Below are positions 837 through 17,387 of a stretch of 64,000 bases of DNA, piece by piece (position 1 is the first letter of the stretch; each line of letters starts with the position of its first letter). Location of the stretch: positions 1-64,000 of the forward strand of contig NZ_BONE01000033.1 in assembly GCF_016862555.1 (NCBI RefSeq), written 5' to 3'. The notes beneath the pieces were generated by a model that was given only the letters and a program-made list of their open reading frames with translations, ran no database searches and had not been told where the DNA came from. A program made the translations under genes and the position numbers. The stretch is from Asanoa siamensis (GTDB taxonomy: Bacteria; Actinomycetota; Actinomycetes; Mycobacteriales; Micromonosporaceae).

Positions 837-839
837 CGG

Positions 840-1982: not shown

Positions 1983-2063
1983 GGGTGTCTCCTGCCCTCG
2001 ACGAACCGGACCGCAGACTATCCAACGATCCGACCGGGATCCGTCCTCTTGGGAACATGCGGT

Positions 2064-2081
2064 TATCGCGATATCGTGATA
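2064..2081. promoter_or_regulatory. 18-bp palindrome, candidate operator or promoter element
   Basis: TATCGCGATATCGTGATA reads nearly the same on both strands (16 of 18 positions symmetric). It lies 82 bases upstream of the GTG at 1982 and next to, but distinct from, the Zur-like box at 2094. It could bind the ArsR-like regulator encoded at 4860 or be part of the leftward promoter. No direct evidence separates these. Confidence 0.35.
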
Positions 2082-2093
2082 CCGCAATCATAA

Positions 2094-2108
2094 TGAAAAT
2101 CACTTTCA
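2094..2108. promoter_or_regulatory. Zur box (leftward gene, shared intergenic region)
   Basis: TGAAAATCACTTTCA is a 7-1-7 palindrome with 6 of 7 paired positions, close to the actinobacterial Zur consensus TGAAAATGATTTTCA. It lies between the divergent propeller gene (start 1982) and znuA (start 2201). Zur bound to zinc would repress from here. Confidence 0.75.
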
Positions 2109-2152
2109 GGTATCTTGTGGTGCGGGCGCGGTCTCGCCTAACGTCCTGCTGG

Positions 2153-2170
2153 TAATGAACCTCATTGTCA
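2153..2170. promoter_or_regulatory. Second Zur-like box, in front of znuA
   Basis: On the minus strand positions 2156-2170 read TGACAATGAGGTTCA, matching 12 of 15 positions of TGAAAATGATTTTCA. The box ends 30 bases before the preferred GTG start of znuA at 2201. It also argues against the possible upstream TTG start at 2165, which would fall inside the box. Confidence 0.65.
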
Positions 2171-2200
2171 GTAAGCCGGACGTGGAAGGTGGCGATCCCG

Positions 2201-3133
2201 GTGCGCCATAAACGCGCGGGTCTAGTTGGTGCTGTGCTGGTGTCGATGGCCATGCTGGCGACGGCGTGCGGGTCCGGCGGAGACGAGGACGCGGCCGCGA
2301 CGCCTTCTGCTGCCTCGCCTGCGGCCGGCGACGTGTCGGTTGTCGCGTCCACCAACGTGTACGGCGACATCGCCCGGCAGATCGCCGGCGACAAGGTGGC
2401 GGTCACGTCGATCATCAGCGACCCGTCCGCCGACCCCCACTCCTACGAGGCGAACACCCGCACGCAGCTCGCGCTTTCCAAAGCCGACGTGGTGATCGAG
2501 AACGGTGGCGGCTACGACGACTTCGTCGACACCATGCTCAAGTCGGCGAACAGCGACGCCAAGGTACTCAACGCCGTCCAGATCTCCGGTCATGTCGCGG
2601 CCGGTGGCGAGGAGCTCAACGAGCACGTCTGGTACGACCTGCCCTCGATGGGCAAGCTCGCGGACCAGATCGCCGGCGCCCTGTCGGCGGCCGACGCCGG
2701 CAACACCGCCACGTTCACCGCCAACGCGACCGCTTTCAAGCAGAAGCTCCAAGAGCTGGAATCCGTCGCCGCGCAGATCAGGACGGCGCACACCGGAGCG
2801 GGTGTGGCGATCACCGAGCCGGTGCCGGTCTACCTCCTGGAGGCGTGCGGGCTGACCAACAAGACGCCCGACGAGTTCAGCGAGGCGGTCGAGGAGGGCA
2901 CTGACGTGCCCGCGAGCGTGCTCCAGGAAACCCTCGGCCTGTTCACCGGCAAGCAGGTCAAGCTCCTCGCCTACAACGAGCAGACCGCCGGCCCGGAAAC
3001 CGAGAAGGTCCTCCAGGCCGCCAAGGACAACAAGGTCGGCGTGGTCCCGGTGACCGAGACGCTGCCCGCCGGCAAGGACTACCTGGCCTGGATGGCCGGG
3101 AACCTCGAGGCCGTCAAGACGGCGCTGGGCTGA
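2201..3133 (+). CDS. znuA: Zinc/manganese ABC transporter substrate-binding lipoprotein
   Basis: GTG 2201 is chosen because GGAAGGTGG lies at suitable spacing and because a Zur box covers the earlier possible start. The 310-residue product has a lipoprotein signal ending at Cys23 (LATAC). Likely metal ligands of the ZnuA/TroA fold are His80 (DPHSYE), His142 (NEHVWYD), Glu206 (ITEPVPVYL) and an acidic residue near 260 (AYNEQ). The third ligand is Glu, not the His usual in zinc-type ZnuA. It lacks a long His-rich loop. It heads an operon with the ATPase (1-base overlap), the permease and an ArsR-like gene. It should deliver metal to the permease from outside the membrane. Confidence 0.86.
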   Translation: MRHKRAGLVGAVLVSMAMLATACGSGGDEDAAATPSAASPAAGDVSVVASTNVYGDIARQIAGDKVAVTSIISDPSADPHSYEANTRTQLALSKADVVIENGGGYDDFVDTMLKSANSDAKVLNAVQISGHVAAGGEELNEHVWYDLPSMGKLADQIAGALSAADAGNTATFTANATAFKQKLQELESVAAQIRTAHTGAGVAITEPVPVYLLEACGLTNKTPDEFSEAVEEGTDVPASVLQETLGLFTGKQVKLLAYNEQTAGPETEKVLQAAKDNKVGVVPVTETLPAGKDYLAWMAGNLEAVKTALG

Positions 3134-3951
3134 TGTCCGCTCCGGTGCTGGAGTTCGAGGACGCCGGGCTGAGCTTCGGGCCGCGGCGGCTCTGGTCCGG
3201 CCTGTCGCTGCGGGTCGAGCCGGGCGAGTTCGTCGCGGTGCTCGGCGCCAACGGCTCGGGCAAGACGAGCCTCGTGCGTGCCATCCTTGGACTCCAGCGC
3301 CTCAGCTCCGGCCGGATCCGACTGGTGGGCAGCCCGCCGCGGCGCGGCTCGGACGACATCGGCTATGTGCCACAGCAGCGGCGGATCGATCCCCTCACGC
3401 CCATGCGCGCCCGCGACATCGTCGGCCAGGGCCTCGACGGACACCGTTGGGGCCTCGGCCGGCAGGCCGGCCGCGCCGCACGGGTCAGGGCGGCGCTCGA
3501 GTCCGTCGACGCGGCCGCCTTCGCGGACCTGCCGATCGGGCTGCTCTCCGGCGGCGAGCAGCAGCGGGTACGCATCGCGCAGGCGCTCGTCGCCGACCCG
3601 GGCCTGCTGCTCTGCGACGAGCCGCTGCTCTCGCTCGACCTGCGCAGCCAACGGACCATCACCGCGCTGGTCGACCGGCGCCGCCGGGAGAAGGGCACCG
3701 CCGTCGTGTTCGTCACCCACGAGATCAACCCCGTGTTGCCCTATGTGGACCGTGTGCTGTACCTGGCTGACGGCCGGTTCCGGGTCGGCTCCGTCGAGGA
3801 GGTCTTCACCTCGACGACCATGTCCGAGCTGTACGGCGTACCGGTCGAGGTGGTACGGATCAACGGCCGCATCCTGGTCGCCGGCATACCGCAGGCCGAC
3901 GAAGCGCACCATCACGAGAACGGCGCCGTCTCCGGAGCACGGCGTGGCTGA
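3133..3951 (+). CDS. znuC: Zinc ABC transporter ATP-binding protein
   Basis: The 272-residue ATPase has Walker A GANGSGKTS near residue 37, the signature LLSGGEQQRVR near 137, Walker B LLLCDEPLLSLD near 157, and an H-loop FVTHE near 194. This set and the position between a ZnuA-like lipoprotein and a ZnuB-like permease identify it as the energising subunit of zinc import. The ATG overlaps the znuA stop by one base and its own stop overlaps the permease start, so the three are coupled. The C-terminal tail has a short HHHEN stretch. Confidence 0.9.
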   Translation: MSAPVLEFEDAGLSFGPRRLWSGLSLRVEPGEFVAVLGANGSGKTSLVRAILGLQRLSSGRIRLVGSPPRRGSDDIGYVPQQRRIDPLTPMRARDIVGQGLDGHRWGLGRQAGRAARVRAALESVDAAAFADLPIGLLSGGEQQRVRIAQALVADPGLLLCDEPLLSLDLRSQRTITALVDRRRREKGTAVVFVTHEINPVLPYVDRVLYLADGRFRVGSVEEVFTSTTMSELYGVPVEVVRINGRILVAGIPQADEAHHHENGAVSGARRG

Positions 3952-4840
3952 CCCCGGGATCTGGTCGCAGGTTTTCAACTTCGCCGACTATGGCCAGTTG
4001 TTAGGTCTGGTCCACAACTCCTTGATCGCCGGCGCGGTTCTCGGGGTCGTCGGCGGCCTGATCGGCACGTTCGTAATGATGCGCGACCTGCCCTTCGCTG
4101 TGCACAGCATCAGCGAGCTGTCCTTCGCCGGCGCCTCGGGCGCTCTGCTGATGGGCGCCAACGTCGTGCTGGGCTCACTGTCCGGCTCGATCCTCGCCGC
4201 CCTGGTCATCGGCCTGTTGGGCAGCCGCGCCCGCGACCGCAATTCCATCATCGGCGTCCTGATGCCGTTCGGTCTAGGGCTCGGTGTGCTGTTCCTGGCC
4301 CTCTACAAAGGGCGAGCGGCGAACAAGTTCGGCCTGCTCACCGGGCAGATCGTCGCCGTGGACACGCCGCAGCTCTCGTGGCTGCTGGCCACGTCGGCGG
4401 TGGTCGTGGTCGGGCTGCTGGTGATCTGGCGACCGCTCGCCTTCGCCAGCACCGACCCTGAACTGGCCGCCGGCCGTGGTGTGCCGGTGGCCGCGCTGTC
4501 GACCATTTTCATGGTGCTGCTCGGGCTGACGGTCGCGATGTCGGTGCAGATCGTCGGCGCACTGCTCGTGCTCAGTGTCGTGTGCACCCCGGCTGCCGCC
4601 GCGATGCGGGTAACCGCCTCGCCGCTGCTGGTCACCGTCCTGAGCGTGCTGTTCGCCGTCGGCTCCGTCGTGGGCGGCATCCTGCTCGCCCTGGGTAGCA
4701 CCATCCCGATCAGCCCGTACGTCACGACGATCTCGTTCCTGATCTACATCGTGTGCCGGATCGTGGGAGCGCGCCGGCAGCGACGGGGCTGGCAGGTCAT
4801 CCCCCGTCCCCGAGCCCCGCTGCCCGCCGCGGTTCGCTGA
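3944..4840 (+). CDS. znuB: Zinc ABC transporter permease
   Basis: The start is GTG 3944, overlapping the end of the ATPase gene; a longer reading frame upstream is a shadow of that gene. The 298-residue product is a polytopic ZnuB-family permease with about eight hydrophobic segments and the family's SISELSFAGASGALLMG region near residue 55. A basic, proline-rich cytoplasmic tail follows the last helix. It forms the channel for metal bound by the lipoprotein at 2201. It is probably under the Zur boxes upstream of that gene. Confidence 0.88.
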   Translation: MADPGIWSQVFNFADYGQLLGLVHNSLIAGAVLGVVGGLIGTFVMMRDLPFAVHSISELSFAGASGALLMGANVVLGSLSGSILAALVIGLLGSRARDRNSIIGVLMPFGLGLGVLFLALYKGRAANKFGLLTGQIVAVDTPQLSWLLATSAVVVVGLLVIWRPLAFASTDPELAAGRGVPVAALSTIFMVLLGLTVAMSVQIVGALLVLSVVCTPAAAAMRVTASPLLVTVLSVLFAVGSVVGGILLALGSTIPISPYVTTISFLIYIVCRIVGARRQRRGWQVIPRPRAPLPAAVR

Positions 4841-4859
4841 GACTTTCGAAGGGGGCTTG

Positions 4860-5204
4860 GTGGCCGAGCCGGAGGGAGTCTTCACGAGCGAGGCGGTCGA
4901 CGCCGTGACGGCCGTCCTGCAAGCGCTCGCCCTTCCGCTGCGCCTGCGGATCGTCCTGGACATCCTGGATCGCGAGGCGACGGCCGCGGACCTGGCCGAT
5001 CGCCTCGATGTGGGCTACGGGACGCTGGCGCAGCACCTGCGGCACCTACGGCTGGCCGGACTCGTGCACCGGCGCCGGGCCGGCAGCCACGTCCGGTACG
5101 TCGCGGCCCCGTCCACGGCTGTCCTGGTCCGGGCGATACTCACGCAGGTCGCCCCCGAGGCAGGCTCGGGGGCGCCCATCAGCGGTGCACGCCCGCGACA
5201 CTGA
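4860..5204 (+). CDS. ArsR-like winged-helix regulator, last gene of znuACB operon
   Basis: GTG 4860 is preferred to TTG 4857 because the AAGGGGG ribosome site then has workable spacing. The 114-residue protein has a winged-helix core: PLRLRIVLDIL, then AADLADRLDVGYGTLAQHLRHLRLAGLV as the helix-turn-helix, then a wing ending HVRYVAA. The alpha3 ELCVCDL-type metal site of SmtB/ArsR sensors is absent, so metal sensing cannot be claimed. It lies 19 bases after znuB and is probably cotranscribed, suggesting a second layer of control in the locus. The gene ends 2 bases before a convergent gene. Confidence 0.7.
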   Translation: MAEPEGVFTSEAVDAVTAVLQALALPLRLRIVLDILDREATAADLADRLDVGYGTLAQHLRHLRLAGLVHRRRAGSHVRYVAAPSTAVLVRAILTQVAPEAGSGAPISGARPRH

Positions 5205-5206
5205 GC

Positions 5207-5878
5207 TCAGTTCGGGACGCCTTCCGGCTCACCATCGGCGGTGAAGGCCCCGCTGCCCTGCTCCGTCCGCAGATAGACGTGCTGATGGCCGAGCCCGGCA
5301 TCGATGTTGAGCTGGTCCAGCTGAGCCGCCGCGACCGACCAGCCCACGGACGCGGTGCGCTGGGCCCGTTCGACCGATCGCAACAGCGCCGGCCGGTTCG
5401 CCGCCGGCACCTCCAGCGACATCGCGTAGAGGTCGACGGCCAGGGCGAAACCGTCCACCGCGGCCCGCAGGCCACCGCGCGCCACGTTCGTCGCGGTCGT
5501 TCCAGAGGGGCTGTCGGCGTGTGCGTGGACGAGACCGTCGACGGTCGCCTTCCAGGCGCCGACCTGCGCCGCCGACGCCGGGCGGGTGCCGGCGGCGGCC
5601 GTGTCCAGCTCCGTGAGCAGCTTTCCGAGCGCTTCCTGCGACGCGCGCGCCACGGTCGTCAGCTCCTTGATCTGGGCGAGGTCGCGTACCGCTTCCTGCT
5701 TTCTGATCTCCTCGACGGCCCGGCTCGTCGCGTCCGGCCGGCCGGCCAGGAAGCCGCTCCCACCGCCGACGATCAGGAGGGCCGCCGCGGCCACGATGGC
5801 CGCAATCAGCGGGACGCGGCGCCGACGCTGCTGTTCGTCGCGCCGGACGTAGGAAGGCTTGCCGGTCTTGCGCGACAT
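5207..5878 (-). CDS. Single-pass membrane protein of unknown function
   Basis: I choose ATG 5878 (GGGAGA upstream), giving 223 residues: a basic cytoplasmic start (RRDEQQRRRR), a membrane helix at about residues 23-45, and an extracytoplasmic region predicted helical, with a likely coiled segment (SRAVEEIRKQEAVRDLAQIKEL). Two His residues (GHQHVY) lie near the end. I do not recognise a family. It is convergent with the znu operon and follows the terminator of the surface-protein pair. A weak TGATTATCA half-palindrome at 5965 lies upstream, which is too degenerate to call a Zur box. Confidence 0.6.
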   Translation of the reverse strand: MSRKTGKPSYVRRDEQQRRRRVPLIAAIVAAAALLIVGGGSGFLAGRPDATSRAVEEIRKQEAVRDLAQIKELTTVARASQEALGKLLTELDTAAAGTRPASAAQVGAWKATVDGLVHAHADSPSGTTATNVARGGLRAAVDGFALAVDLYAMSLEVPAANRPALLRSVERAQRTASVGWSVAAAQLDQLNIDAGLGHQHVYLRTEQGSGAFTADGEPEGVPN

Positions 5879-5984
5879 CCGGTCTCCCGTCGTGGGGCGA
5901 CGAGGGCCGGCCGCCGCTGCCGGCACGGTAACGCGTACCGGCGGCCGCCATCAAGAGACGCACATGATTATCAGAAGCTTTTGC

Positions 5985-6011
5985 GGGGCCGGGCTCGGTG
6001 AGCCCGGCCCC
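5985..6011 (-). terminator. Intrinsic-type hairpin after the surface-protein pair
   Basis: GGGGCCGGGCTC (5985-5996) and GAGCCCGGCCCC (6000-6011) form a perfect 12-bp stem with a 3-base loop. It starts 13 bases beyond the stop of the leftward gene at 6024. There is no U-run, which is common for actinobacterial terminators. Confidence 0.75.
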
Positions 6012-6023
6012 TCCGTTCGGCGA

Positions 6024-6665
6024 TCAGCCGGCGAGCACCTGGAACGTGAAGGCTCTGGAACCGGAGGTGACGGTCGCACCGGTGGACGCGAGCACGCCGG
6101 TGACGCTGAAGGTGACGGTGTACGTGCCCGCGGCGTCGAAGGCCCAGTTCACGTGCGAGTGGGTCAACCGGGGCAGCGCGAGGGTGTCGGGTAGGCCGTT
6201 GCCGCTGTCGAACAGCACCGTGGGCGTTCCGCCGGACGCGGTGTAGATGCTGAAGCCGGCCGGTCCGCCGACCGCGGTGAGACGGAACGTCACCTTGTCG
6301 TCGACGAACACGCCGGCGGGGATCTCGGTGGTGTTCCAACCGGCCCAGAGCAGGCCGGGCACGCTGTTCTGCGGCAGGACCCAGGCCGTGCCACCGGTAC
6401 CGAGGAAGGACCAGGCGGGCGTGCCCGGGATGCTGGTGAGTCTGGCGGCGACCGGCACGCGGAACGTGACGTCGGACGGGTTCCGTTCGACCGCGGTCGT
6501 GCCGGTCTCGTCGAGGACCCGCAGGACGAGCGCGCCACCGCTGTAGTCGACGTCGAGGATGTCGACGTGACCGCTGGTCAGTGTCACGGGCGCGGCGTGC
6601 GCCGGAGTCGCGACGGACCCGACGATCAGCGCGGCGAGCAGCAGCGGCGCCAGTACCCGCCTCAT
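6024..6665 (-). CDS. Secreted choice-of-anchor M domain protein
   Basis: The 213-residue protein has a signal peptide (residues 1-24, ending AHA) and one choice-of-anchor M (TIGR03769-type) domain filling the rest. Key motifs are GHVD at 32-35, a FLG-x-VLPQ strand near 88-99, LLWAGWNT near 106, and THSHVNWAF near 168. The GHxD and HxH motifs recur in the other surface proteins here and may bind zinc (inference). No C-terminal anchor is visible, so it may be soluble in the wall. Its ATG overlaps the stop of the gene at 6662 (ATGA), so the two are coupled. Confidence 0.8.
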   Translation of the reverse strand: MRRVLAPLLLAALIVGSVATPAHAAPVTLTSGHVDILDVDYSGGALVLRVLDETGTTAVERNPSDVTFRVPVAARLTSIPGTPAWSFLGTGGTAWVLPQNSVPGLLWAGWNTTEIPAGVFVDDKVTFRLTAVGGPAGFSIYTASGGTPTVLFDSGNGLPDTLALPRLTHSHVNWAFDAAGTYTVTFSVTGVLASTGATVTSGSRAFTFQVLAG

Positions 6666-7333
6666 GCCTTGACCTCGAAGCGGTAGAGACCCGCGTCGGC
6701 GACCGTCCGACCCGTCGCGGCGAGCTTGCCGGTGACCGCGACGGCGATCCGGTAGGTGCCAGGCTTCTCGAAGGCCCAGTTCGCGTGCAGGTGGTCGCCG
6801 GTGGACAGGGCGAAGGTGTCGGGCTGGCCGTCGCCGGTGTCGACCAGGATGTCGGCCGGCAGACCGAACGCGTTCTCGGTGTAGACGGCGACGTCACCCG
6901 GGCCCAGCACGGCGAACGTCACGTTGACCGTGTCGGCGCGCAGGACGCCGGCGTCGATCTCCTCGGTGCCGAGCCCGGCCCAGATCAGGTCCGGATTCTG
7001 GGTCTGCGGCAGGATCCAGACCGGATCACCGGCGTCGCCCAGGAACGCGTACGCGGTATCGGTCGGCACGCTGGTGCGCGCGGACGGACGGACGCGGAGC
7101 GTGACGTCCTCGGGCGCCCGCTCCTCGCCCGGCTCGACGCTCTCGTCATGGACGTGCAGGTGCAGATCGCCGTCCTCGACGGCCACGCCGACCACGTCGA
7201 CGTGGCCGTGGTCGATCACGATCAGGCCGCCGGCCTGTGCCGGTGCGGCGGTGGTGGCCACCACGGCGGCCGCGAGCATGCTCGACGCGACGAGCACCCG
7301 GATGGAGCTTCGCACAGTCGCTCTCCTCCCCAT
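6662..7333 (-). CDS. Secreted choice-of-anchor M domain protein
   Basis: The 223-residue protein has a signal peptide ending near AQA (residue 34), then one choice-of-anchor M domain: GHVD at 43-46, the His-rich strand LHLHVHDES near 57-65, AYAFLGDAGDPVWILPQ near 94-110, LIWAGLGT near 116, and HLHANWAF at 181-188. The extra HLHVH stretch adds candidate metal ligands. No wall-sorting signal is seen. It is first in a two-gene operon directly behind a near-perfect Zur palindrome at 7354-7376. Expression should therefore rise in zinc starvation. Confidence 0.8.
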   Translation of the reverse strand: MGRRATVRSSIRVLVASSMLAAAVVATTAAPAQAGGLIVIDHGHVDVVGVAVEDGDLHLHVHDESVEPGEERAPEDVTLRVRPSARTSVPTDTAYAFLGDAGDPVWILPQTQNPDLIWAGLGTEEIDAGVLRADTVNVTFAVLGPGDVAVYTENAFGLPADILVDTGDGQPDTFALSTGDHLHANWAFEKPGTYRIAVAVTGKLAATGRTVADAGLYRFEVKA

Positions 7334-7353
7334 GGTCCCCAGTGGACCAGAAT

Positions 7354-7376
7354 ATGAACACGATAATCGTTTTCAT
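7354..7376. promoter_or_regulatory. Extended Zur box, 10-1-10 palindrome
   Basis: Left arm TGAACACGAT and right arm ATCGTTTTCA flank a central A (7355-7375), with 9 of 10 positions paired, plus outer A and T. It lies 21 bases upstream of the leftward surface-protein gene (start 7333). It is the longest Zur-type palindrome in the window. Confidence 0.8.
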
Positions 7377-7445
7377 TTAGGAGCGATAGGTGTGCCAGGG
7401 AGGAGAGTTCGTGATGTCAGGCGTCGCCTTCTGACCGGGAGACGG

Positions 7446-7850
7446 TCAGCGCGCGCAGGCCGAGCAGGTGCCGAAGATCTCGAGCGTGTGCGCGATGTCG
7501 GTGTAGCCGTGCTGGTCGGCGACCTTCTCCGTCCAGCGTTCCATGGCCGGGCCTTCGATCTCGACCGTCCGGCCACACATGCGGCACACGAGGTGATGGT
7601 GGTGCCGGGATCGCGAGCACTGCCGGAACAGCTGCTCGCCGTCAGGCGTCCGCGTCGCGTCGACCTCGCCGGTCTCGACCATGCGCTGGAGGGTGCGGTA
7701 AACGGTGGTCAGGCCCACCTTGGCGCCACGCTCGCGAAGGAGCCCGTGCAACTGCTGCGCGGTGAGGAAGTCGTTGACCTCCTGGAGCAGAGCGGTCACT
7801 TCGGTGCGCTGCCGCGTGGTGCGGGCGGGGGTTGGCGTCGAGCCGTTCAC
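7446..7850 (-). CDS. zur: Zinc uptake regulator Zur (Fur family)
   Basis: The GTG start at 7850 follows AGGAGGA at good spacing; the product is 134 residues. The Fur-family winged helix includes VGLTTVYRTLQRM (45-57). The regulatory site HHHHLVCRMC (83-92) and the paired GTCSAC (128-132) supply the structural zinc cysteines of actinobacterial Zur/FurB. HTLEIFG (121-127) is also typical. It sits alone between two surface-protein operons whose promoters carry Zur boxes. A TAGGGT -10-like element lies at 7879-7884. With zinc it should repress the znu, anchored-repeat and surface-protein units. Confidence 0.92.
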   Translation of the reverse strand: MNGSTPTPARTTRQRTEVTALLQEVNDFLTAQQLHGLLRERGAKVGLTTVYRTLQRMVETGEVDATRTPDGEQLFRQCSRSRHHHHLVCRMCGRTVEIEGPAMERWTEKVADQHGYTDIAHTLEIFGTCSACAR

Positions 7851-7910
7851 CAGGGAGTTCCTCCTGTTCCGACGCGCGACCCTATCACATATGCGCAAAC
7901 CGCTATCATT

Positions 7911-7944
7911 CCGCCGGCGACCGCGTGATCGCGGTCGCCGGCGG
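7911..7944 (-). terminator. Strong hairpin between surface-protein operon and zur
   Basis: CCGCCGGCGACCGCG (7911-7925) pairs perfectly with CGCGGTCGCCGGCGG (7930-7944) around a TGAT loop. It lies 20 bases past the stop of the leftward gene at 7964 and just upstream of the zur promoter, so it should end the three-gene surface-protein transcript. Confidence 0.75.
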
Positions 7945-7963
7945 ATCTCGTGGCTCCGGCGCC

Positions 7964-9490: not shown

Positions 9491-10524
9491 GATTTCGTTC
9501 CTCCCATGGACGTGGCGGACAGTGCCTCGGCGCGACCGGCGTCCCGGGCCGCGGCGAGCGCGCGCCTTCTGACACGCCGGCGCCACCACACGAACCAGCC
9601 CATGCCGGCCACGAGCAGCAGCACGGCGATCTGCGGCCAGGGCGGCGCCCACAGGGACGTCGTGGTCGTCGCCGTCGGCGCGGCCGTGCCCGGTGGGTCC
9701 ACGATCGCCGGCGCGGGGTCGAACTCCACCGTCAGTCGGATCAGGGGCAGGACCCCGTCCGCGCGTACGGTGGTGAGCACCTCACCGCCGGGCAGGATCT
9801 CCGGCACCGGATCCGTGCGGGCGACCCGACGGCCGACACCGAACGGGCCGGCGATCGTCGTCACTGGCTGCCCGGTGAGCCGGACGTTGCCGGTGTTGCG
9901 GATCCGGTAGGTGGCGGTGACGACGCCGCCGCCGATCGGGTCGACGGTGCCGGTCCAGCGCGCCGCGACGCGCTCGACCTCGAGCGCCGGCCGCACCTCA
10001 CCCGTGACGCGCAGGTAGACGCGCGTGCCGACGCGCCGGTCCACCTTCACCTGGCCGCCTTCGGCGGTGGCCGCGGTGGTCGCCACGGCCGCGACGATGC
10101 CGCCGGCGTGGTCGCCCGGTGTGGCGTTCTTCGGCACGGACAGACGGAAAGGCACGTCCATGCGGGACTTCGAGGGGATCGTGAGCCGGGCGAACCTGCT
10201 GTCGAACGACACCCAGCTGCCGACGCCGGTCGGCTCGCGCGCCGCCGGGAGCAGGTCGAAGCCGCCCTGCTCGGTGGTGAACGCGTCGCTGGCGTACAGG
10301 TCGAGGGTGATCGGCGCGGCCGAGTAGTTGGAGACGGCCGCGTAGTCGGTCAGGGTCGCACCGGGGTCGAGCTTGTAGGTGAAGGCGGGGCGGCCGTCCG
10401 GCCCGCTCCTGGTCGACGGCGCGATGCCCCATGTCTGTGGGGTCGTGGGTTCGGCCTGCGCCGCCGCCCCGACCGGCAGTGAACCGGCCAGGGCGGCGAC
10501 GACCGCTGTCGCGAGCAGGCGCAT
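9487..10524 (-). CDS. DUF916 (WxL-associated) surface protein with C-terminal membrane anchor
   Basis: The 345-residue protein has a signal peptide (about 1-24), then a DUF916-type peptidoglycan-binding domain (FTYKLDPGATLTDYAAVSNY near 48-67, SRMDVPFRLSVPKNATPGDH near 120) and a second Ig-like domain. A membrane helix sits near 295-315, followed by a basic tail. In Firmicutes, DUF916 proteins hold WxL-domain proteins at the cell wall. Here the neighbour encoded just upstream ends in a WxL-like domain, so the same partnership is likely. It overlaps the next gene by ATGA and follows the previous stop by 2 bases. Confidence 0.78.
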   Translation of the reverse strand: MRLLATAVVAALAGSLPVGAAAQAEPTTPQTWGIAPSTRSGPDGRPAFTYKLDPGATLTDYAAVSNYSAAPITLDLYASDAFTTEQGGFDLLPAAREPTGVGSWVSFDSRFARLTIPSKSRMDVPFRLSVPKNATPGDHAGGIVAAVATTAATAEGGQVKVDRRVGTRVYLRVTGEVRPALEVERVAARWTGTVDPIGGGVVTATYRIRNTGNVRLTGQPVTTIAGPFGVGRRVARTDPVPEILPGGEVLTTVRADGVLPLIRLTVEFDPAPAIVDPPGTAAPTATTTTSLWAPPWPQIAVLLLVAGMGWFVWWRRRVRRRALAAARDAGRAEALSATSMGGTKS

Positions 10525-10526
10525 GG

Positions 10527-11993
10527 TCAGATAGCGGTCAGCGTCAGCGTCGCGGCGTACTGTCCCGCGGCGGTCTCGCTGGGCAGCTCGAGCCGCAACT
10601 CCGCGCCGAGCTGCGCGGTGCCGCGGCCACTGCCGGCCGGCGCCGCACCCAGCACCGCCCCGCGGCTGAGTCCGTTGCCGGTCGTGAAGCCCGGTGCGGC
10701 CACCGGACCGGCGACGACGCCCTGTCCCTGCGCCTGGCCGAGGACCTGTGGGGTCCAGCCCAGGTATCTGCCGGCGAAACCACCGCCGGCGTTGGCGGCG
10801 AAGTCGGACACCGAGCCGGAGGCGTTCCAGCCCGGTCGGGTCGCCCTCGTGTCGGTCACCGTCACCGGCCGCAGCGCGCCCGAGGTCTCCAACCGGTCAC
10901 CGCTGGCACCGACGGTGGCCGGCGGCAGGTTCACCGTGCGGTCGTCCGGATCCACACTGAGCACCAGGGCGCCGTCGGTCTCCCGGATCGTCGCGGTGAT
11001 CGACTGGCTGGAGCCCGGGTCGCCGGGGTTGCCCTCCTCCTCGACCACGAGCGTGACCGGGTCGGCTTCGGCCACCGCCCGGTGGTCGTCGTCGTAGAGA
11101 ACAGCCTTGTACTGGCAGCCGTCCAGGTCCGCTGTCGCGGTGAACTGGTACGAGAAGGTCAGCTCACCGGACACGACCGCGAAGTCCGCCGCTCCGGGGC
11201 ACTTGCTGAACCAGTGGAAGTGGTCCAGGTCGGTCTCCACGTCGGTCATCGCCACCAGGTTGACCTGCTGCCCCGGCCGGTAGCTGTCCGCCAGGCCGTA
11301 GACGTCGAGCTGGAGGTCCGGATCGGTCCCGTCTCCGACGAGGAACGTGTAGTCGACCGGGCCGGTCGACAGCTTCGTCCCGTCGGTGAGCGTCGCGTCG
11401 GCCTGGAACCTCAGGGTGTAGGTGCCGGTGGCGCTGAACGCCCAGTTCGCGTGGGCGTGGGTGTGCACCGGCACGTCCAACGCGTCGGGCAGGCCGTCGT
11501 CGGTGCGGAACTTGTGCAGCGGCATGCCGATGGCGTCGGACATGAACACCCAGACGTCGCCGGGCCCGTCGACGTCGACGAGGCTCAGCTTGACCGAGTC
11601 ACCGGCGAACACCCCACCGGGCAGCGTCGTGGTGTTCCAGCCCGGCCAGAGCAGGTTGGGGTCCTGCACCTGGGGCAGGAGCCAGACGGTGGCACCGGGC
11701 TCCCCCAGAAAGCTGTACTGGGGGATGTCGGGCACCTGCACGGCGGAGGCCGGCAGGGCGTGGAACGTGACGTCCGCCGGGTCGCGCATGACCGAAGGCT
11801 CGACGGTGTCGTCGTGCACCTCGAGGCTCAGTGCCCCGTTCTCGTAGTGGACGTCCACCGCGTCGGTGTGGCCCTGCGACAGGACCACCTTCTCCGCGGC
11901 GGCGGCCGGAGCCGCACCGATCGCCATGCCGGCCAGCAGGGCGGCGGCGGTCGCGGCGACCGTCAACGATCGCCCGCGCGCTCGTACTCTCAT
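10527..11993 (-). CDS. Secreted protein: choice-of-anchor M domain plus WxL-like C-terminal domain
   Basis: The start is ATG 11993 behind GGAAGG, giving 488 residues. The signal peptide ends near residue 33. The choice-of-anchor M domain has GHTD at 41, WLLPQ near 104, LLWPGWNT near 114 and HTHAHANWAF at 177-186. A beta domain with two Cys (265, 293) follows. Residues about 335-488 resemble a WxL domain: PGWNASGSVSDF near 387, LGWTPQ near 411, and a terminal ATLTLTAI strand. The WxL assignment comes from these motifs only. It leads an operon with the DUF916 partner and sits directly behind a Zur box. Confidence 0.78.
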   Translation of the reverse strand: MRVRARGRSLTVAATAAALLAGMAIGAAPAAAAEKVVLSQGHTDAVDVHYENGALSLEVHDDTVEPSVMRDPADVTFHALPASAVQVPDIPQYSFLGEPGATVWLLPQVQDPNLLWPGWNTTTLPGGVFAGDSVKLSLVDVDGPGDVWVFMSDAIGMPLHKFRTDDGLPDALDVPVHTHAHANWAFSATGTYTLRFQADATLTDGTKLSTGPVDYTFLVGDGTDPDLQLDVYGLADSYRPGQQVNLVAMTDVETDLDHFHWFSKCPGAADFAVVSGELTFSYQFTATADLDGCQYKAVLYDDDHRAVAEADPVTLVVEEEGNPGDPGSSQSITATIRETDGALVLSVDPDDRTVNLPPATVGASGDRLETSGALRPVTVTDTRATRPGWNASGSVSDFAANAGGGFAGRYLGWTPQVLGQAQGQGVVAGPVAAPGFTTGNGLSRGAVLGAAPAGSGRGTAQLGAELRLELPSETAAGQYAATLTLTAI

Positions 11994-12013
11994 CCCTCCC
12001 CTTCCTAATTGGA

Positions 12014-12032
12014 AATGAGAACCATTTTCATT
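12014..12032. promoter_or_regulatory. Zur box upstream of the WxL/DUF916/LAxTG operon
   Basis: The core TGAGAACCATTTTCA (12016-12030) lies inside an AATGA...TCATT frame and pairs 7 of 9 positions around a central C. It ends 21 bases upstream of the leftward start at 11993. Confidence 0.72.
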
Positions 12033-12045
12033 ACGGGCGGACGGT

Positions 12046-12064
12046 AGCACGCGTCATGCGTGCT
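12046..12064 (-). terminator. Hairpin after the anchored-repeat permease gene
   Basis: AGCACGC and GCGTGCT form a 7-bp stem around GTCAT, 12 bases beyond the stop at 12076. No U-run follows. It would separate the ABC operon from the next Zur-controlled unit. Confidence 0.45.
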
Positions 12065-12075
12065 GTCGAGAACGA

Positions 12076-12930
12076 TCAGGTGGCCGACAGGCGTGCGGCG
12101 ATCAGGCCGTGCCGGGGCGCGAAAACCCAGGCGACCAGGAACGCCGCGGTGAGGACGAGGACGATCGTCCCGCCCACCGGCAGGTCCCACGACCACGAGA
12201 CGTAGAGTCCGACCAGCGCCGACAGGCCACCCAGCGCGGGCGCGAGCACCATCATCACGCCGAGGCGGTCGGTCAGGAGCCTGGCGGTCGCGGCCGGTGT
12301 GACCAGCAGCGCGAGCACCAGGATGTTGCCGATGGTCTGCACCGAGATCACCACCGCCAGCGTGACCAGCACGTACAGGGCGATGTCGAGCCAGAACGTC
12401 CGCAGGCCGGTCGCCCGGGCCATCTCGCGGTCGAGGGTGACCGCCACGAACTCCTTGTGCAGCAACAGGATGGCCAGTATGACGCCCAGACCGGTGAGCA
12501 CCACCACGTAGACGTCGCGATCCGGGATGCCGGTGATCGAGCCGAACAGGAACTGCTGCAGGGAGCCGGCGTAGCCGGGCGCGCGCGAGATGACGACGAT
12601 GCCCAGCGCGAACGCCGAGACGAAGAACACGCCGATGACGGAGTCCTCCTTGAGCCGGCGATTCTGTGCGAAGACCGCGACCAGGACCGCGGTGACCACG
12701 CCGGCGACCGTGCCGCCCAGCACGAGGTTGCCGGACACGACGAACGCCACCGCCAGCCCCGGGAACACGGCGTGTGCGACCGCGTCACCGATGAACGCCA
12801 TGCCTCGCAGGACGACGTAGGTGCCCACGACACCGCAGACGATCGCCGCCACGACCGCGATCACCAACGCCTTCGGCAGGAAGGCCAGGTCAGGGTTGAA
12901 CAGGTCGCGAAGGAAGTCGACCGGAGACAT
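12076..12930 (-). CDS. Anchored-repeat-type metal ABC transporter permease
   Basis: The 284-residue protein is a ZnuB/TroC-family permease with about eight membrane segments. Family motifs include VVLRGMAFIGDAVAHAVFPGLA near 40-60 and LVTPAATARLL near 212. Its place behind an ATPase, a choice-of-anchor M protein and a domain-inserted binding protein matches the TIGR03770 'anchored repeat' group. It is distinct from the permease at 3944, so the locus encodes two complete metal importers. The start ATG at 12930 follows the ATPase stop by one base. Confidence 0.87.
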   Translation of the reverse strand: MSPVDFLRDLFNPDLAFLPKALVIAVVAAIVCGVVGTYVVLRGMAFIGDAVAHAVFPGLAVAFVVSGNLVLGGTVAGVVTAVLVAVFAQNRRLKEDSVIGVFFVSAFALGIVVISRAPGYAGSLQQFLFGSITGIPDRDVYVVVLTGLGVILAILLLHKEFVAVTLDREMARATGLRTFWLDIALYVLVTLAVVISVQTIGNILVLALLVTPAATARLLTDRLGVMMVLAPALGGLSALVGLYVSWSWDLPVGGTIVLVLTAAFLVAWVFAPRHGLIAARLSAT

Positions 12931-12931
12931 C

Positions 12932-13702
12932 TCACGCTCCCCGCTCGGCGGGCACGCCGCCGTCGATCCCGATGCTCGCCAGCAGCGGGCTGCGCTCGCT
13001 CACGCCGAACGCCTCCATCCACACGCGACGATCACGCAGGTCGCCGGGCCGGCCGAACGCGACCACCGTGCGGTTGAGCAGAGCCAGACGGTCGCAGGTG
13101 TGCACCGCGGACGCGAGGTCGTGCGTGGCCATGACGACGGCGTTCTCGCGCGCCAGGGCGGTGAACAGCTCGCCGAGCACCTCCTGCGTGGGCATGTCGA
13201 GACCGGTGAACGGTTCGTCGAGCAGCAACACCCGCGGGCGCAGCACCAGGGCCCGGGCTACCAGGACCCGCTGCCGTTGGCCGCCGGACAGCTCGGCGAC
13301 CGGCCGTCGGCGCAGGTCGGTCATCCGTACCCGCTCGAGGGCGTCGCCGACCGCACGCCAGTGCTCCACTCCTGGGCGCCGGAACAGGCCGATGCGCCGC
13401 GCCAGGCCGGTCATCACCGCGTCCTGGACAGAGACCGGGAAATCCCAGGTGAACGCGTGGCGCTGCGGCACGTAACCGATCGGTGAGCGGCCAGGGCGGA
13501 CCGGCCGGTCCGCCACCATGATGCGCCCCTGCCTCGTGCGTACGAGCCCCAGCACCGCCCGCAACAGGGTGGTCTTCCCCGCGCCGTTCGGTCCGACGAG
13601 GCCGACCAGTTGGCGGTCTTCGACGTGGAGGTCGACGTCGCGCAGGACAGGCCGTCGGCCGAGATCGACGTCGACGTGTTCGAGAGACAGGACGGCGGTC
13701 AC
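12932..13702 (-). CDS. Anchored-repeat-type metal ABC transporter ATP-binding protein
   Basis: The start is GTG 13702, overlapping the upstream stop (GTGA); product 256 residues. Walker A is GPNGAGKTT near 38, the signature is ELSGGQRQRVLVARAL near 137, Walker B is VLLLDEPFTGLD near 160, and the H-loop is MATHD near 193. It pairs with the permease at 12076 and the binding protein at 14600 (TIGR03771-type). It powers metal import and is part of a four-gene operon behind the Zur box at 16212. Confidence 0.9.
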   Translation of the reverse strand: MTAVLSLEHVDVDLGRRPVLRDVDLHVEDRQLVGLVGPNGAGKTTLLRAVLGLVRTRQGRIMVADRPVRPGRSPIGYVPQRHAFTWDFPVSVQDAVMTGLARRIGLFRRPGVEHWRAVGDALERVRMTDLRRRPVAELSGGQRQRVLVARALVLRPRVLLLDEPFTGLDMPTQEVLGELFTALARENAVVMATHDLASAVHTCDRLALLNRTVVAFGRPGDLRDRRVWMEAFGVSERSPLLASIGIDGGVPAERGA

Positions 13703-14583
13703 GGCTGCTCTTCCTGCTCCGCGCGGCGCCGGACGCGCCTGCTCCGCCAAGCGACCCAGACGAGTCCCGCCGCGACGACGGCGCCCGCCACGGCCACGCC
13801 GGAGGTCAGCAGGTGCGACCCACGCTCCGGTGGGTCGGCTTTCCTGTCCGGGGCAACGGCGGACGGCAACGGGTTCGTGAACGTCGCGGCGAAGGCGGCG
13901 TCGGCGGTGGTCCCGTCGCCGACTGCGAATCTGAGCACCTCGCGTGCCGTGACCGTGACCCCGCCCGCCAACTCCGCGGTGAACTCGACCGTCGCCAGAT
14001 AGACGCCGGGACGGGCGAACACCCAGTTCGCATGCGTGTGTGTGTTGGTCTCGACCCAGACCGGCTGCGGGTACGGCTGCCGGCTGCTCCACAGCACGTC
14101 CGGGGCGTCGAGACTGCCGGACTGCAGGAACACCGTCAGGGCCCCGGGGCCCTGGACGCCGAGCAGGCTCATCGTCACACCCCGGGCGACAGCGTCCATG
14201 ACTCCGGGATCCTGCGTGTTCCAGCCCACCCAGACGACGTCCGGATCCTGCGTCTGCGGGATCACGTGCACCGGCGTACCCGGCTCCTGGTCGAGGAACG
14301 CGTACGCGGGATCGTCGGGCACGTCCTGGACCGCGGCGTCCGGCACGCGGATCACCGCGTCGCGCGGCGAGCGCCACACCGCTGGCACGACCGTGTCGTC
14401 GTGCACCAGGACCGTCCACTCACCGTCGTGATAGCGCGGTCCGATGTCGACGTGGCCCGCGCCCAACTCCGCCCGCCCCGCCGTCACCGTCTGGTCGGCC
14501 GCGACCCGCTGGTCGAGATCGTCGGGGGACGGCGACGGCGCGAGGGCGAGAGCGAGCACGGCCAGGACGCCGAGTGTTCTCAT
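13699..14583 (-). CDS. Membrane-anchored choice-of-anchor M protein of the ABC operon
   Basis: The 294-residue protein has an N-terminal signal, a choice-of-anchor M domain (GHVD at 43-46, LVHDDTV near 59, PVHVIPQ near 104, VVWVGWNT near 116, THTHANWVF at 181-189) and a C-terminal membrane helix at about 250-272 followed by RRxRRR. There is no LAxTG signal, so it stays in the membrane. It resembles TIGR03773-type proteins found beside anchored-repeat transporters. It lies between the binding protein (16 bases upstream) and the ATPase (4-base overlap), suggesting a structural partner of the importer. Confidence 0.82.
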   Translation of the reverse strand: MRTLGVLAVLALALAPSPSPDDLDQRVAADQTVTAGRAELGAGHVDIGPRYHDGEWTVLVHDDTVVPAVWRSPRDAVIRVPDAAVQDVPDDPAYAFLDQEPGTPVHVIPQTQDPDVVWVGWNTQDPGVMDAVARGVTMSLLGVQGPGALTVFLQSGSLDAPDVLWSSRQPYPQPVWVETNTHTHANWVFARPGVYLATVEFTAELAGGVTVTAREVLRFAVGDGTTADAAFAATFTNPLPSAVAPDRKADPPERGSHLLTSGVAVAGAVVAAGLVWVAWRSRRVRRRAEQEEQP

Positions 14584-14599
14584 GTGCTGGGTCTCCCAA

Positions 14600-16177
14600 T
14601 CAGGTCAGGCATCGCTTGAGCGAGTCGGCGTTGAACCGCATCATCCGCACGTACGTGGTCACCGTGTCGTCGAAGGCGTCGCCGTAGATGGCGCACACCT
14701 GTCGTCGTTGCTCCTTGGCCACCTCGGCCAATGTGGACGATCGCGCGGCGAGGTTCGGTTCGAGGAACACCGCGCGTACGTGCAGGTTGCGGATCGTCTC
14801 GGTCAGCTTCCGCCGGTCCGCCAGGCTCGGCTCGACGGCCGGGTTCGGCGTGACGAAACCGGCGACGGGAATCTGGTACGCGTGCGCGAGATAGCCGAAC
14901 GCATCGTGGGTGGTGACCAGATAGCGCTGGGATGGCGGGATCGACGCGATCGTCTCCGCGACATAGGCGTCCAGCGCGCTCAACTCGGCCAGGTAGGTCT
15001 CCGTGTTGCGGCGGTAGGTGCTCGCCCCGGCCGGGTCGGCGGCGGTCAGCGTGTCCCGGATGAGCTCCACGTACGCCTGCGCGTTGCCGACGTCCTGCCA
15101 CAGGTGCGGGTCGATCTCGCCGTGCACGTGCCGGCCGAGCACCGCCTGCGGGAGTTGATAGACCTGCTGCCCCGGACGGCCGAGGAACCGGTAACCGCGC
15201 CCGGCCGGCACCTCCTTCAGCGCCTTGGCCGGCACCTCGATCACCGTGGTCGCGGGGTCGTACACCTCCTGGTTGACCTCGCCGCCGCCGTGCGGGTCCG
15301 CGTAGAGGTGCAACCGCCCGCTGTCGAGGTCGACCGCGATGTCCGCGTGGCCGGCCGCGAGCACGGTCGGCGCCGGGATGCCGGTTGCCGAATGCGGGTC
15401 GACACCGACGGCGAAGGTGAAGGTTTGCGTCCCGATGTCGACCGGTCTGGCGTCGTGGGCGACCCGCAGCTTCGCCGACATCGTGAGCCGGTAGACACCG
15501 GGCGCCGTGAAGGCCCAGCTCATGTGGGTGTGCGCGGCGGGCGGAAGGGTCGCCGTGTCGTCCCGGTAGCCGTCGGACGCGTCGAAGCCGTCCGCGGAGT
15601 TGACGTAGAAGACCGGGTCACCGAACGACTCCGTCAGGTACGCGACCAGGGCGCCAGGGCCGGACACGTCAGTCGCCGAGATCAGCACGTCGGATGCCCG
15701 GTTCGCGCCGTGCTGCGCGCCGGTGCCCCGTACCCGCAGACCCAGCCAGATGGTGTCCAGGGAGACGTCCTCGACCAGCGGGATGATCTCGGCCGCGTAC
15801 TTCGACGCACCTTCGGCCAGCGAGATGTTCGGGATGCCGTCGCGGAGGTTGGCGTCCAGCGCCTTGATGACGTTCTGGGCCTCCAGCAGCAGGTAGTTGC
15901 TGAACGCGACGTCGGCGTACACGATGTTGCGCACGTCGCGCAGGCTCGGCTCGTAGACGTGCGAATCGGCCTTGTCCGGCACCACCGAGTCCACGACCAC
16001 CCGGTCGCCGCCCACGTTGCGCACCAGGTCAGCCAGGATCCCTGTCGTCGTGACCACCTGGAGCCGGTCGGTGGAAGGGCTGAACGCCACGGGCGCTGTG
16101 CAGGCCCCGAGTAACACGGCCGACCCCGCGGCGATCGCCGATACCGCCGCGCGCCGCCACTGCCTGGACGTTGCCAT
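14600..16177 (-). CDS. Zinc-binding lipoprotein with a permuted choice-of-anchor M domain inserted between its lobes
   Basis: The start is ATG 16177 behind GGAGGAG; product 525 residues with lipobox LLGAC (Cys26). Residues 39-138 match the ZnuA N-lobe (SHVYEPS, His73), and 350-522 match the C-lobe (HVHGEIDPHLW 350-360, THDAFGYLAHAY 423-434). Between them, 141-238 match the C-half of the surface domain (DVSGPGALVAY, AHTHMSWAF) and 270-347 its N-half (AGHADIAV, YRFLGRPGQQVYQLPQ), so the halves are in reverse order. This is the TIGR03772 'anchored repeat' binding-protein type. The third ligand is His (THDAF), unlike the Glu in the protein at 2201. Confidence 0.88.
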   Translation of the reverse strand: MATSRQWRRAAVSAIAAGSAVLLGACTAPVAFSPSTDRLQVVTTTGILADLVRNVGGDRVVVDSVVPDKADSHVYEPSLRDVRNIVYADVAFSNYLLLEAQNVIKALDANLRDGIPNISLAEGASKYAAEIIPLVEDVSLDTIWLGLRVRGTGAQHGANRASDVLISATDVSGPGALVAYLTESFGDPVFYVNSADGFDASDGYRDDTATLPPAAHTHMSWAFTAPGVYRLTMSAKLRVAHDARPVDIGTQTFTFAVGVDPHSATGIPAPTVLAAGHADIAVDLDSGRLHLYADPHGGGEVNQEVYDPATTVIEVPAKALKEVPAGRGYRFLGRPGQQVYQLPQAVLGRHVHGEIDPHLWQDVGNAQAYVELIRDTLTAADPAGASTYRRNTETYLAELSALDAYVAETIASIPPSQRYLVTTHDAFGYLAHAYQIPVAGFVTPNPAVEPSLADRRKLTETIRNLHVRAVFLEPNLAARSSTLAEVAKEQRRQVCAIYGDAFDDTVTTYVRMMRFNADSLKRCLT

Positions 16178-16211
16178 CCGGACGCACTCCTCCCGCCTCT
16201 CCGAGCGAAAA

Positions 16212-16226
16212 TGAAAACCGTTTTCG
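16212..16226. promoter_or_regulatory. Zur box between divergent binding-protein and propeller genes
   Basis: TGAAAACCGTTTTCG pairs 6 of 7 positions around a central C, within a longer GCGAAAA...TTTTCGC context (16206-16227). It is 35 bases upstream of the leftward start at 16177 and 55 upstream of the rightward start at 16281. It could control both. Confidence 0.75.
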
Positions 16227-16280
16227 CATCGTACGGCCCGGTGCGCGTGTTGCAAAGCGGGGGCGGCTACGGTTGCCCGC

Positions 16281-17387
16281 GTGAACGAACCGGCGCCGGA
16301 GTCGCCGCCGCGCCGGCCGCGGCCGCCGGCGCGCAGCGTCCTCGCGTTGGTCGCGGCACTGGCGGCGACAGGGGCGCTGGTGGCGCAGACACCCGAAGGG
16401 CCCCGCGCCCCGCAACCGCCACCGCCGGCGGTCGGAACCGTGTGGCCGCAGGCTCAGCGCGCGGACGTTCCCGGTGTGCTGGCCGACGGTGACTCGTACA
16501 ACCCCACCTTCTTCGTCGACGCCCGGACCTCCGCGGGCACCGCCGTCGACGCCGGCGGCAAGGCGGTGCGTCTCGTGCTGCGCGCGGCCGACGGCACCGT
16601 GCGGGTGCTCCGCCAAGTCCCGGCTGCGACTGGCCCGCAGTTCGCGGCGTTCGCCCGCCTGGGCAACCAGTTGGTCTGGGCGGAGACGGACGGGACGGCC
16701 CGGACCGCGCTATGGCGCGCCGACCTGTCCGGCGGCAGACCGCGCAAGATCACCGACGACACCGGCTGGGCGACCTTCGCCGGCTCGGACTACGACATCG
16801 TCTGGCATGCCGGCCGACTGTTCTGGACAGCGACCGCGCCGGGCGACCAACGGGCGACCGAAGTGCGGTCCGTCCCCGTCGACGGCGGGCCGGTCGAGGT
16901 TCGCACGGAGCAGGGCGAGTGGACCCTGTCCCGCTGGCCGTGGCTGGTCAACGCGAGCAGCGGCCAGGTTCGGTTACGCAACCTCGACACCGCTCGGGTC
17001 ATCGACGTCGACGCGGGCCAAGACCGCCTAGGTCAATGTGGACCGACCTGGTGTCGTGTGTACGTACTGTCCGGCGACGACCCGGCCCGCACGGAGCTGA
17101 TACGTCCTGACGGATCCGAGCGGCTGCGAATAGCCGACGACGGCGCGACCGCCTCGATCGTCGACGTGGCACCACTCGACCGCTTCGAGATCCTCTCAAA
17201 GGACTCGAGCACGCTGGGCGCCGCGATCGGCGGACAGGAGCTGCTCGTGTACGACCTCAAGAACAGGCGGACGATCCTGGTCGCCACAGCGGCGACAAGT
17301 GTGTCCTATCGAGCCGGTGTGCTGTGGTGGTCCACCAACTCTCTCGGACTCCTCTCCTGGCACACGCTCGACCTGCGCACGGTCTGA
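16281..17387 (+). CDS. Membrane-anchored propeller-like protein (paralogue B)
   Basis: The 368-residue product starts at GTG 16281. A Pro/Arg-rich N-terminus precedes a membrane helix at about 19-36. The rest is extracytoplasmic with repeating beta motifs (LWRADLSGGRPRKITDD near 147; LIRPDGSERLRI near 273), typical of TolB/WD-like propellers. It is paralogous to the protein at 840-1982 and shares FFVDA, WPWL, CGPTWCR and VLWWSTN landmarks. It is divergent from a zinc-binding-protein gene with a Zur box between, the same layout as paralogue A. Function unknown. Confidence 0.62.
   Translation: MNEPAPESPPRRPRPPARSVLALVAALAATGALVAQTPEGPRAPQPPPPAVGTVWPQAQRADVPGVLADGDSYNPTFFVDARTSAGTAVDAGGKAVRLVLRAADGTVRVLRQVPAATGPQFAAFARLGNQLVWAETDGTARTALWRADLSGGRPRKITDDTGWATFAGSDYDIVWHAGRLFWTATAPGDQRATEVRSVPVDGGPVEVRTEQGEWTLSRWPWLVNASSGQVRLRNLDTARVIDVDAGQDRLGQCGPTWCRVYVLSGDDPARTELIRPDGSERLRIADDGATASIVDVAPLDRFEILSKDSSTLGAAIGGQELLVYDLKNRRTILVATAATSVSYRAGVLWWSTNSLGLLSWHTLDLRTV

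Follow-up and report, generated by a model that had tools for sequence, protein, structure and literature searches.

A putative Zur-controlled zinc island of Asanoa siamensis with a permuted surface domain inside its importer receptor

The 64,000-nucleotide window analysed here (Asanoa siamensis, assembly GCF_016862555.1, contig NZ_BONE01000033.1, positions 1 to 64,000) carries a candidate zinc island at 2024..16256, which lies between two putative propeller genes; two sister genomes lack this stretch at the corresponding site. An earlier note, made from the sequence alone, had described a zinc relay of two ATP-binding cassette (ABC) importers and five surface proteins, with zur in the middle and Zur-like palindromes at five promoters. 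These elements were recovered: the choice-of-anchor-M model NF038134 matches five exported proteins, importer components exceed the cut-offs of TIGR03770, TIGR03771 and TIGR03772, and the palindromes lie within a few bases of where they had been placed (1, 3, 3, 2 and 3 mismatches). The present analysis reveals that the substrate-binding protein (SBP) of one importer contains a circularly permuted copy of the surface domain, which suggests a route for zinc from the wall to the membrane.

The genes of the anchored-repeat importer lie on the reverse strand. They encode the SBP lipoprotein with the inserted, permuted surface domain (14600..16183; TIGR03772, 771 bits against a cut-off of 350), a membrane-anchored single-domain protein in the ZnuE position between SBP and ATPase (13699..14583; NF038134, 195 bits), the ATPase (12932..13702; TIGR03771, 339 bits, cut-off 268.8) and the permease (12076..12930; TIGR03770, 453 bits, cut-off 296.8). 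Together with a wall protein of the TIGR03773 family (7964..9499, reverse strand; 322 bits, cut-off 190.3), the SBP, permease and ATPase pass curated cut-offs, and by these matches the set would be an anchored-repeat ABC system (TIGR03770-03773) of the znuAECB-FG type. The SBP fold gave 97 PDB matches at E<=1e-3, with AztC, PsaA and MntC among the best. The AlphaFold2 model of the ZnuE-like protein has a mean predicted local distance difference test (pLDDT) score of 90.3 and a C-terminal helix at 258-292. The locus was compared with a relatives set and with a GTDB set, the latter being the best 80 of the 416 stretches that encode a receptor relative (among 444 pattern-matching stretches, not genomes, of the GTDB collection) and sharing some genomes with the former. 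The gene order sbp-cam_tm-abc-perm recurs in 71/80 GTDB-set and 56/81 relatives-set loci.

The inserted domain occupies 15137..15769 on the reverse strand, corresponding to residues ~139-349 of the SBP. NF038134 aligns to it in inverted order, with model positions 77-184 first and 1-73 thereafter, the latter half alone falling below the cut-off. When the halves of the window's domain were swapped, the two partial matches of 46.7 and 40.0 bits became one full-length match of 95.7 bits (positions 3-187). The same exchange was made in 66 receptors, namely that of the window and those of 65 of the 80 GTDB-set loci, the others being omitted for odd length or redundancy. The swapped order outscored the native one in 66/66 receptors, with a median of 96.4 bits over 186 model positions versus 51.8 bits over 108. 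A FastTree tree was built from 104 domains of 21 loci; the 10 inserts sampled in it grouped together with a support of 1.0, which points to a single origin of the SBP insert.

With the insert removed from the alignment, the His-rich loop of Escherichia coli ZnuA coincides with the insertion point, and the three ZnuA ligands H60, H143 and H207 align with H75, H360 and H426 of the SBP. The residues H75, H218, H220, H279, D281, H360 and H426 are invariant in 66/66 receptors. AztC depends on its flexible D-loop and the three histidines in it to receive zinc from AztD, and the crystal structure has an unmodelled segment between residues 116 and 134, just ahead of the ligand H138 (PMC7463823). Because the insert lies at the ZnuA loop position, and because the AztC D-loop is needed for transfer, we propose a hand-off of zinc from the inserted domain to the receptor site. 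No description of a permuted zinc receptor was found in the open-access literature.

The free copies of the domain are found in five exported proteins, all encoded on the reverse strand. Two single-domain choice-of-anchor-M proteins with HxD/HxH motifs form a two-gene surface pair (6024..6665 and 6662..7333; NF038134, 163 and 166 bits). Both end with the domain, the LAxTG-like letters of the window proteins fall inside it, and a C-terminal helix was found in 0/61 and 0/59 of their homologues. The two-domain wall protein at 7964..9499 ends in LAQTG, a hydrophobic stretch and an Arg tail, and its first surface domain (residues ~30-190) carries neither HxD nor HxH. Among 95 distinct homologues of this protein, the last 60 residues hold LPxTG in 57, LAxTG in 18 and neither in 20. 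The gene at 10527..11993 encodes a choice-of-anchor-M domain (NF038134, 187 bits) followed by a C-terminal WxL-like domain, and the fifth protein is the membrane-anchored, ZnuE-like one.

Adjoining the WxL-like gene, at 9487..10524 (reverse strand), lies the gene of a WxL-interacting, peptidoglycan-binding protein (WxLIP_PGBD, PF06030, the former DUF916; 36.4 bits, cut-off 27.3), with a hydrophobic stretch and an Arg-rich segment near its C-terminus. The earlier note had proposed at least three modes of attachment; LAQTG sorting, the WxLIP protein and the membrane helix stood, whereas the WxL domain itself scored 14.1 bits (E 0.049), below the Pfam cut-off of 25. In homologues of the WxL-like protein, 24/37 match WxL at E<=1, the best at 8.8e-6. 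A WxLIP gene lies near the cluster in 57/81 relatives-set and 43/80 GTDB-set loci, and adjoins the WxL-like gene in 46/81 and 38/80, respectively. The open-access papers retrieved for WxL with Zur were, by their titles, on other subjects.

The whole genome holds eight NF038134 matches, all in the island cluster: six domains plus both parts of the SBP insert, of which one scores below the cut-off; 14 control genomes held none. HxD and HxH occur in all six proteins, i.e., the five exported ones and the SBP. Among the 710 near-full-length of 1062 NF038134 domain matches, H44 is kept in 99.4%, D46 in 99.5%, H182 in 93.2% and H184 in 93.4%. In the AlphaFold2 model of the ZnuE-like protein, the surface domain is confident and beta-rich, with block pLDDT means of 90-99 over residues 31-240. 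A Foldseek search with the domain gave no match at E<=1e-3 (best, peptidylarginine deiminase at 2.2e-3), and a sequence search against solved structures gave three chance-level matches (best E 0.025).

The second importer, on the forward strand, consists of a zinc/manganese-type SBP of the ZnuA family without the inserted domain (2165..3133; PF01297, 175.8 bits), an ATPase (3133..3951; metal ABC ATPase matches below equivalog cut-offs) and a permease (3950..4840; AztB/SloB/ZnuB-like, below cut-offs). These Zur-boxed znuABC genes are followed by an ArsR/SmtB metalloregulator gene (4857..5204, forward strand; NF033788, 55 bits at a cut-off of 55), likely a second metal sensor in the island. The regulator at 7446..7850 (reverse strand) matched 3mwm (181 bits, E 9.6e-53), Streptomyces coelicolor Zur, and 2o03, the zinc uptake regulator FurB (150 bits, E 2.9e-43); the next chain, 7ne9, followed at 67 bits (E 1.5e-17). 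Its NCBIfam matches were Fur-family ones below cut-off, Zur among them. By these similarities, the protein is identified as Zur rather than Fur or PerR. It is a second genomic copy, 60% identical to the other, which stands at C10:127590 beside znuABC. A Zur of >=150 bits, i.e., at least that score, lies within the fetched stretch in 13/55 loci of the family Micromonosporaceae. The protein at 5207..5926 (reverse strand), with an N-terminal hydrophobic stretch, matched no NCBIfam or Pfam family; its phmmer homologues occur in some cluster loci and adjoin zur in three of them (L179, L233 and L250).

The Zur boxes were sought with the pattern TGAAAATNATTTTCA, the actinobacterial Zur consensus, at <=3 mismatches, with 100 dinucleotide shuffles of the window as the null. 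The window contains six matches, compared with a shuffle mean of 0.02 (largest 1). Five of them, on the forward strand, stand at island promoters. The box at 2094..2108 (TGAAAATCACTTTCA, one mismatch) precedes znuA and is also upstream of the first propeller gene, and that at 2156..2170 (three mismatches) follows it by 62 bp, again before znuA. Further boxes occur at 7361..7375 (three mismatches), ~28 bp ahead of the two-gene surface pair; at 12016..12030 (two mismatches), immediately ahead of the probable start codon (ATG, ~11993) of the choice-of-anchor-M/WxL-like gene that leads the WxL-like/WxLIP/wall operon; and at 16212..16226 (three mismatches), between the starts of the anchored-repeat SBP gene and the second propeller gene. 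The outer boxes at 2094 and 16212 both lie within the island bounds. Predicted Zur boxes at the cluster promoters agree with the assignment to the anchored-repeat system.

The sixth match, a three-mismatch palindrome at 62350-62364, overlaps the opening codons of a gene for a siderophore-type SBP (PF01497) and was for this reason left out of the promoter boxes. Genes for a FecCD permease, an ATPase and a methyltransferase belong to the same run as that SBP gene; the palindrome could be either a chance match or the mark of a Zur-linked metallophore importer.

The whole 8.78-Mb genome contains 22 sites of the Zur pattern, versus 4 of the reversed pattern. Sixteen sites lie outside the window, and 4 of the 12 inspected precede zinc genes; the remaining eight are divided equally between the interior of predicted genes and intergenic positions with no evident zinc link. 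Downstream of the box at C5:43029 stand genes for a CobW-type GTPase, whose best NCBIfam match, the MRF family, stays below its cut-off, and for a type-B ribosomal protein L31, which exceeds its own. Zinc GTPases and type-B L31 are classic Zur targets. Near glyS, the box at C10:130886 stands ahead of znuABC and an accompanying zur, and those at C20:76657 and C20:76719 precede a znuABC-like set at a spacing of 62 bp, equal to that of the boxes at 2094 and 2156. Since the palindrome is common to zinc-gene promoters elsewhere in the genome, it is best read as a Zur box, with some chance matches at three mismatches.

A similar enrichment was observed in other genomes. For this count, the relatives set comprised 80 loci from 78 other genomes (86 fetched loci minus the sister locus L126 and five propeller or flank loci), and 60 scrambled palindromes served as the null. 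The 99 kb upstream of leading cluster genes held 51 boxes and the remaining 1475 kb held 57, i.e., 0.51 versus 0.039 per kb. On average, a scrambled palindrome had 1.2 upstream matches; the maximum was 35. This maximum belongs to the scramble AAATGAT, which reads the same site in a shifted register, 83/91 of its matches sitting 3 bp off a Zur-type box. When all 16384 palindromic half-sites were ranked, TGATAAC came first and TGAAAAT, the half-site of the search pattern, second; the former is a variant of the latter. Three of the 80 GTDB-set loci were too short and were dropped. Of the boxes in the 35 Micromonosporaceae loci of that set, 16 lay upstream, where the null gave a mean of 0.4 and a maximum of 14, and 38 elsewhere; in the 42 other loci the counts were 19 and 27, and the null, with a mean of 0.9, reached a maximum of 19, the same as the real upstream count. 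Thus, the upstream excess is weaker in the GTDB set than in the relatives set.

Taking these observations together, we consider it probable that the locus is a Zur-repressed zinc-scavenging island, in which the on-board domain of the receptor would pass zinc to the receptor site. At low cytoplasmic zinc, Zur would leave the five boxes, and two cluster A-I importers and five exported HxD/HxH proteins would be made. Two of the latter have no evident anchor; one would be attached by sortase at LAQTG, one through its WxL-like domain beside WxLIP and one in the membrane. Each intact domain would probably hold one zinc, with H-x-D and H-x-H joined in the beta-rich fold. The receptor's own copy, permuted to fit the loop, would take the position of the ZnuA His-rich loop and the AztC D-loop, accept zinc that is either dissolved or carried by the ZnuE-like and wall proteins, and deliver this zinc to the receptor's own H75/H360/H426 site. 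Zur-controlled capture of zinc at the surface is well supported; the hand-off from surface proteins to importers and between domains, the metal-site geometry, and the roles of the WxL-like and anchor-less proteins are what we infer. Going further, a single insertion of the permuted wall zinc domain into the docking loop of a zinc receptor, early in Actinomycetota, may have turned transfer between two proteins into transfer within one molecule, and the free copies would then form a chain of like sites leading to the receptor. We put this last scenario forward tentatively, as possible rather than probable.

Several observations weigh against the proposed mechanism. Three of the five island boxes have three mismatches. 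A box at <=3 mismatches stands ahead of the leading gene in 40/80 relatives-set loci, and a box precedes it in 12/35 Micromonosporaceae and 15/42 other loci of the GTDB set; therefore, some clusters may be under other control or have divergent boxes. The alignment in which the insert was retained misplaced the N-terminal half of ZnuA, and the SBP model has a pLDDT of <50 at the junctions 118-132, 140-142 and 347-357. Furthermore, in the homologous cluster of Corynebacterium diphtheriae, a ZnuE mutant with three alanine substitutions (3xAla) was still zinc-responsive, ZnuF and ZnuG restrained growth when the importer was absent, and the znuA mutant had a weak phenotype (PMC12445094).

The growth data could also mean that the surface proteins are wall zinc stores or sinks that pass nothing to the importers, the SBP domain being a recognition or spacer element. 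Deletion of znuF/znuG rescues the importer-less C. diphtheriae mutant, and their over-expression restrains growth (PMC12445094). However, the HxH and HxD ligand-type residues of the insert are invariant in 66 receptors, for which a mere spacer has no need, and the C. diphtheriae znuE mutant grew more poorly in low zinc (PMC12445094). We regard a pure storage role as a doubtful, though serious, alternative to zinc hand-off.

The earlier note had also counted the two flanking genes, whose identity as propellers is its own, putative assignment, among the members of the apparatus. AztC is loaded by AztD, a beta-propeller under Zur control (PMC6689063), and both window propellers, like one in the sister genome G396, face zinc genes across a box. 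The fetched stretches of 3/55 family cluster loci (L126, L146 and L153), two of these in other genera, include a propeller homologue, and among the 33 family genomes reported by both searches one occurs in 13/13 with the cluster and 14/20 without (Fisher P 0.06). In all, homologues were found in 30/61 relatives, which is 30/37 of those of the same family. In contrast, the propeller genes have no AztD, NCBIfam, Pfam or PDB match above threshold, and a box at <=3 mismatches lies within ~1.5 kb in 2/30 homologue loci (from 44 matches in all), only the window's own and that of sister G398. In sisters G394 and G397, the propeller genes are direct neighbours, in 20-kb stretches without a box or any other island gene. 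Since they adjoin without the island in two sister genomes, they probably lie outside it, and an AztD-like chaperone role in the same system is unlikely; this part of the earlier claim was not upheld. At L146 (1-1971) and L153 (213-1346), the homologues adjoin the zinc cluster, which mere flanking genes would leave unexplained.

The island bounds come from the same sister genomes. By blastn, window positions 1-2023 and 16257-17387 flank 49 bp in G394 (L181), where the window has 14.2 kb, and 1-1943 and 16259-17387 flank 112 bp in G397 (L182), the left flank there ending at 1943. The whole cluster lies between the propellers in G398, whereas G396 (L183) has znuABC and zur there, without the surface cluster, and a two-mismatch box between znuA and one propeller. 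The propeller-flanked site thus seems to hold different cargo in different species. At L183 6559-12364 in G396, the place of the surface cluster is taken by zur, znuABC and long open frames, which a simple gene finder put at 501 and 1129 codons. The contig edge carries a TIGR03943/DUF1980 membrane protein gene at 114-833, and the stretch 1-2023 that includes it adjoins the first propeller gene also in the island-free sisters.

An apparatus for manganese or iron is very improbable: the SBPs match manganese families too, and cluster A-I receptors are hard to separate by sequence, but the boxes are shared with the zinc-GTPase/type-B L31 operon and with znuABC, and the homologous genes of C. diphtheriae show zinc- and Zur-dependent expression (PMC6711530).

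The cluster is widespread in Actinomycetota. TIGR03772 exceeds its cut-off in 27/394 genomes of the class, and NF038134 in 58/200 genomes of Micromonosporaceae with 1-15 matches each, most often 8 (own genome included in both counts). The cluster bears on the question of how metals cross the thick Gram-positive wall to the membrane, for which the permuted insert at the ZnuA loop position offers a concrete single-protein test case of direct zinc transfer. If true, this would define a class of importer receptors that carry their own capture domain, a mechanism of which no description was found in the open-access literature.

A Zur-regulated counterpart of the main cluster is known from C. diphtheriae: znuAECB-znuF-znuG (troA-dip0445, with CmrA/CmrA2), published in 2019 and 2025. 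Expression there depends on zinc and Zur, the troA and dip0442 promoters are zinc-repressed, and gel shifts were made with predicted Zur sites (PMC6711530); for ZnuE, ZnuF and ZnuG, zinc effects by thermal shift, wall or membrane location and growth phenotypes were reported (PMC12445094). The earlier note had called the apparatus little studied. Its zinc theme stands, and its relay idea was largely anticipated by these C. diphtheriae results (PMC6711530, PMC12445094). Both systems share an anchored-repeat SBP, ZnuE between the SBP and the ATPase/permease genes, zinc/Zur-repressed promoters, HxD/HxH wall proteins, one of them sortase-anchored, and an SBP with HxH before HxD. In the window, by contrast, the WxLIP/WxL-like pair, the two anchor-less proteins, the second importer, the ArsR gene and an own Zur lie together in one island. 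For the SBP, the C. diphtheriae paper reports the reversed HxH/HxD order with 45 residues between the motifs and mentions no permutation (PMC12445094); the present analysis adds the permuted domain and where it sits in the loop, the comparison being by published description, not sequences. The permutation would explain the reversed order. The NCBIfam models TIGR03769-TIGR03773 and NF038134, whose cut-offs are passed here, give names without a stated zinc mechanism.

Streptococcal AdcA is a ZnuA-like domain fused to ZinT, the helper standing at the C-terminus; like the window SBP, it couples a zinc-binding helper to a cluster A-I receptor. AztC and AztD do the same (PMC6689063). AztD is a separate propeller and the AdcA helper is C-terminal, whereas the helper in the window is permuted and in the docking-loop position. 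Pneumococcal Pht proteins are likewise surface zinc-binding proteins proposed to load a receptor; however, they carry His-triad motifs instead of HxD/HxH and are distinct in sequence (PMC12445094). Relative to the open-access literature, the present analysis adds the permutation, the loop position, the WxLIP link and the island.

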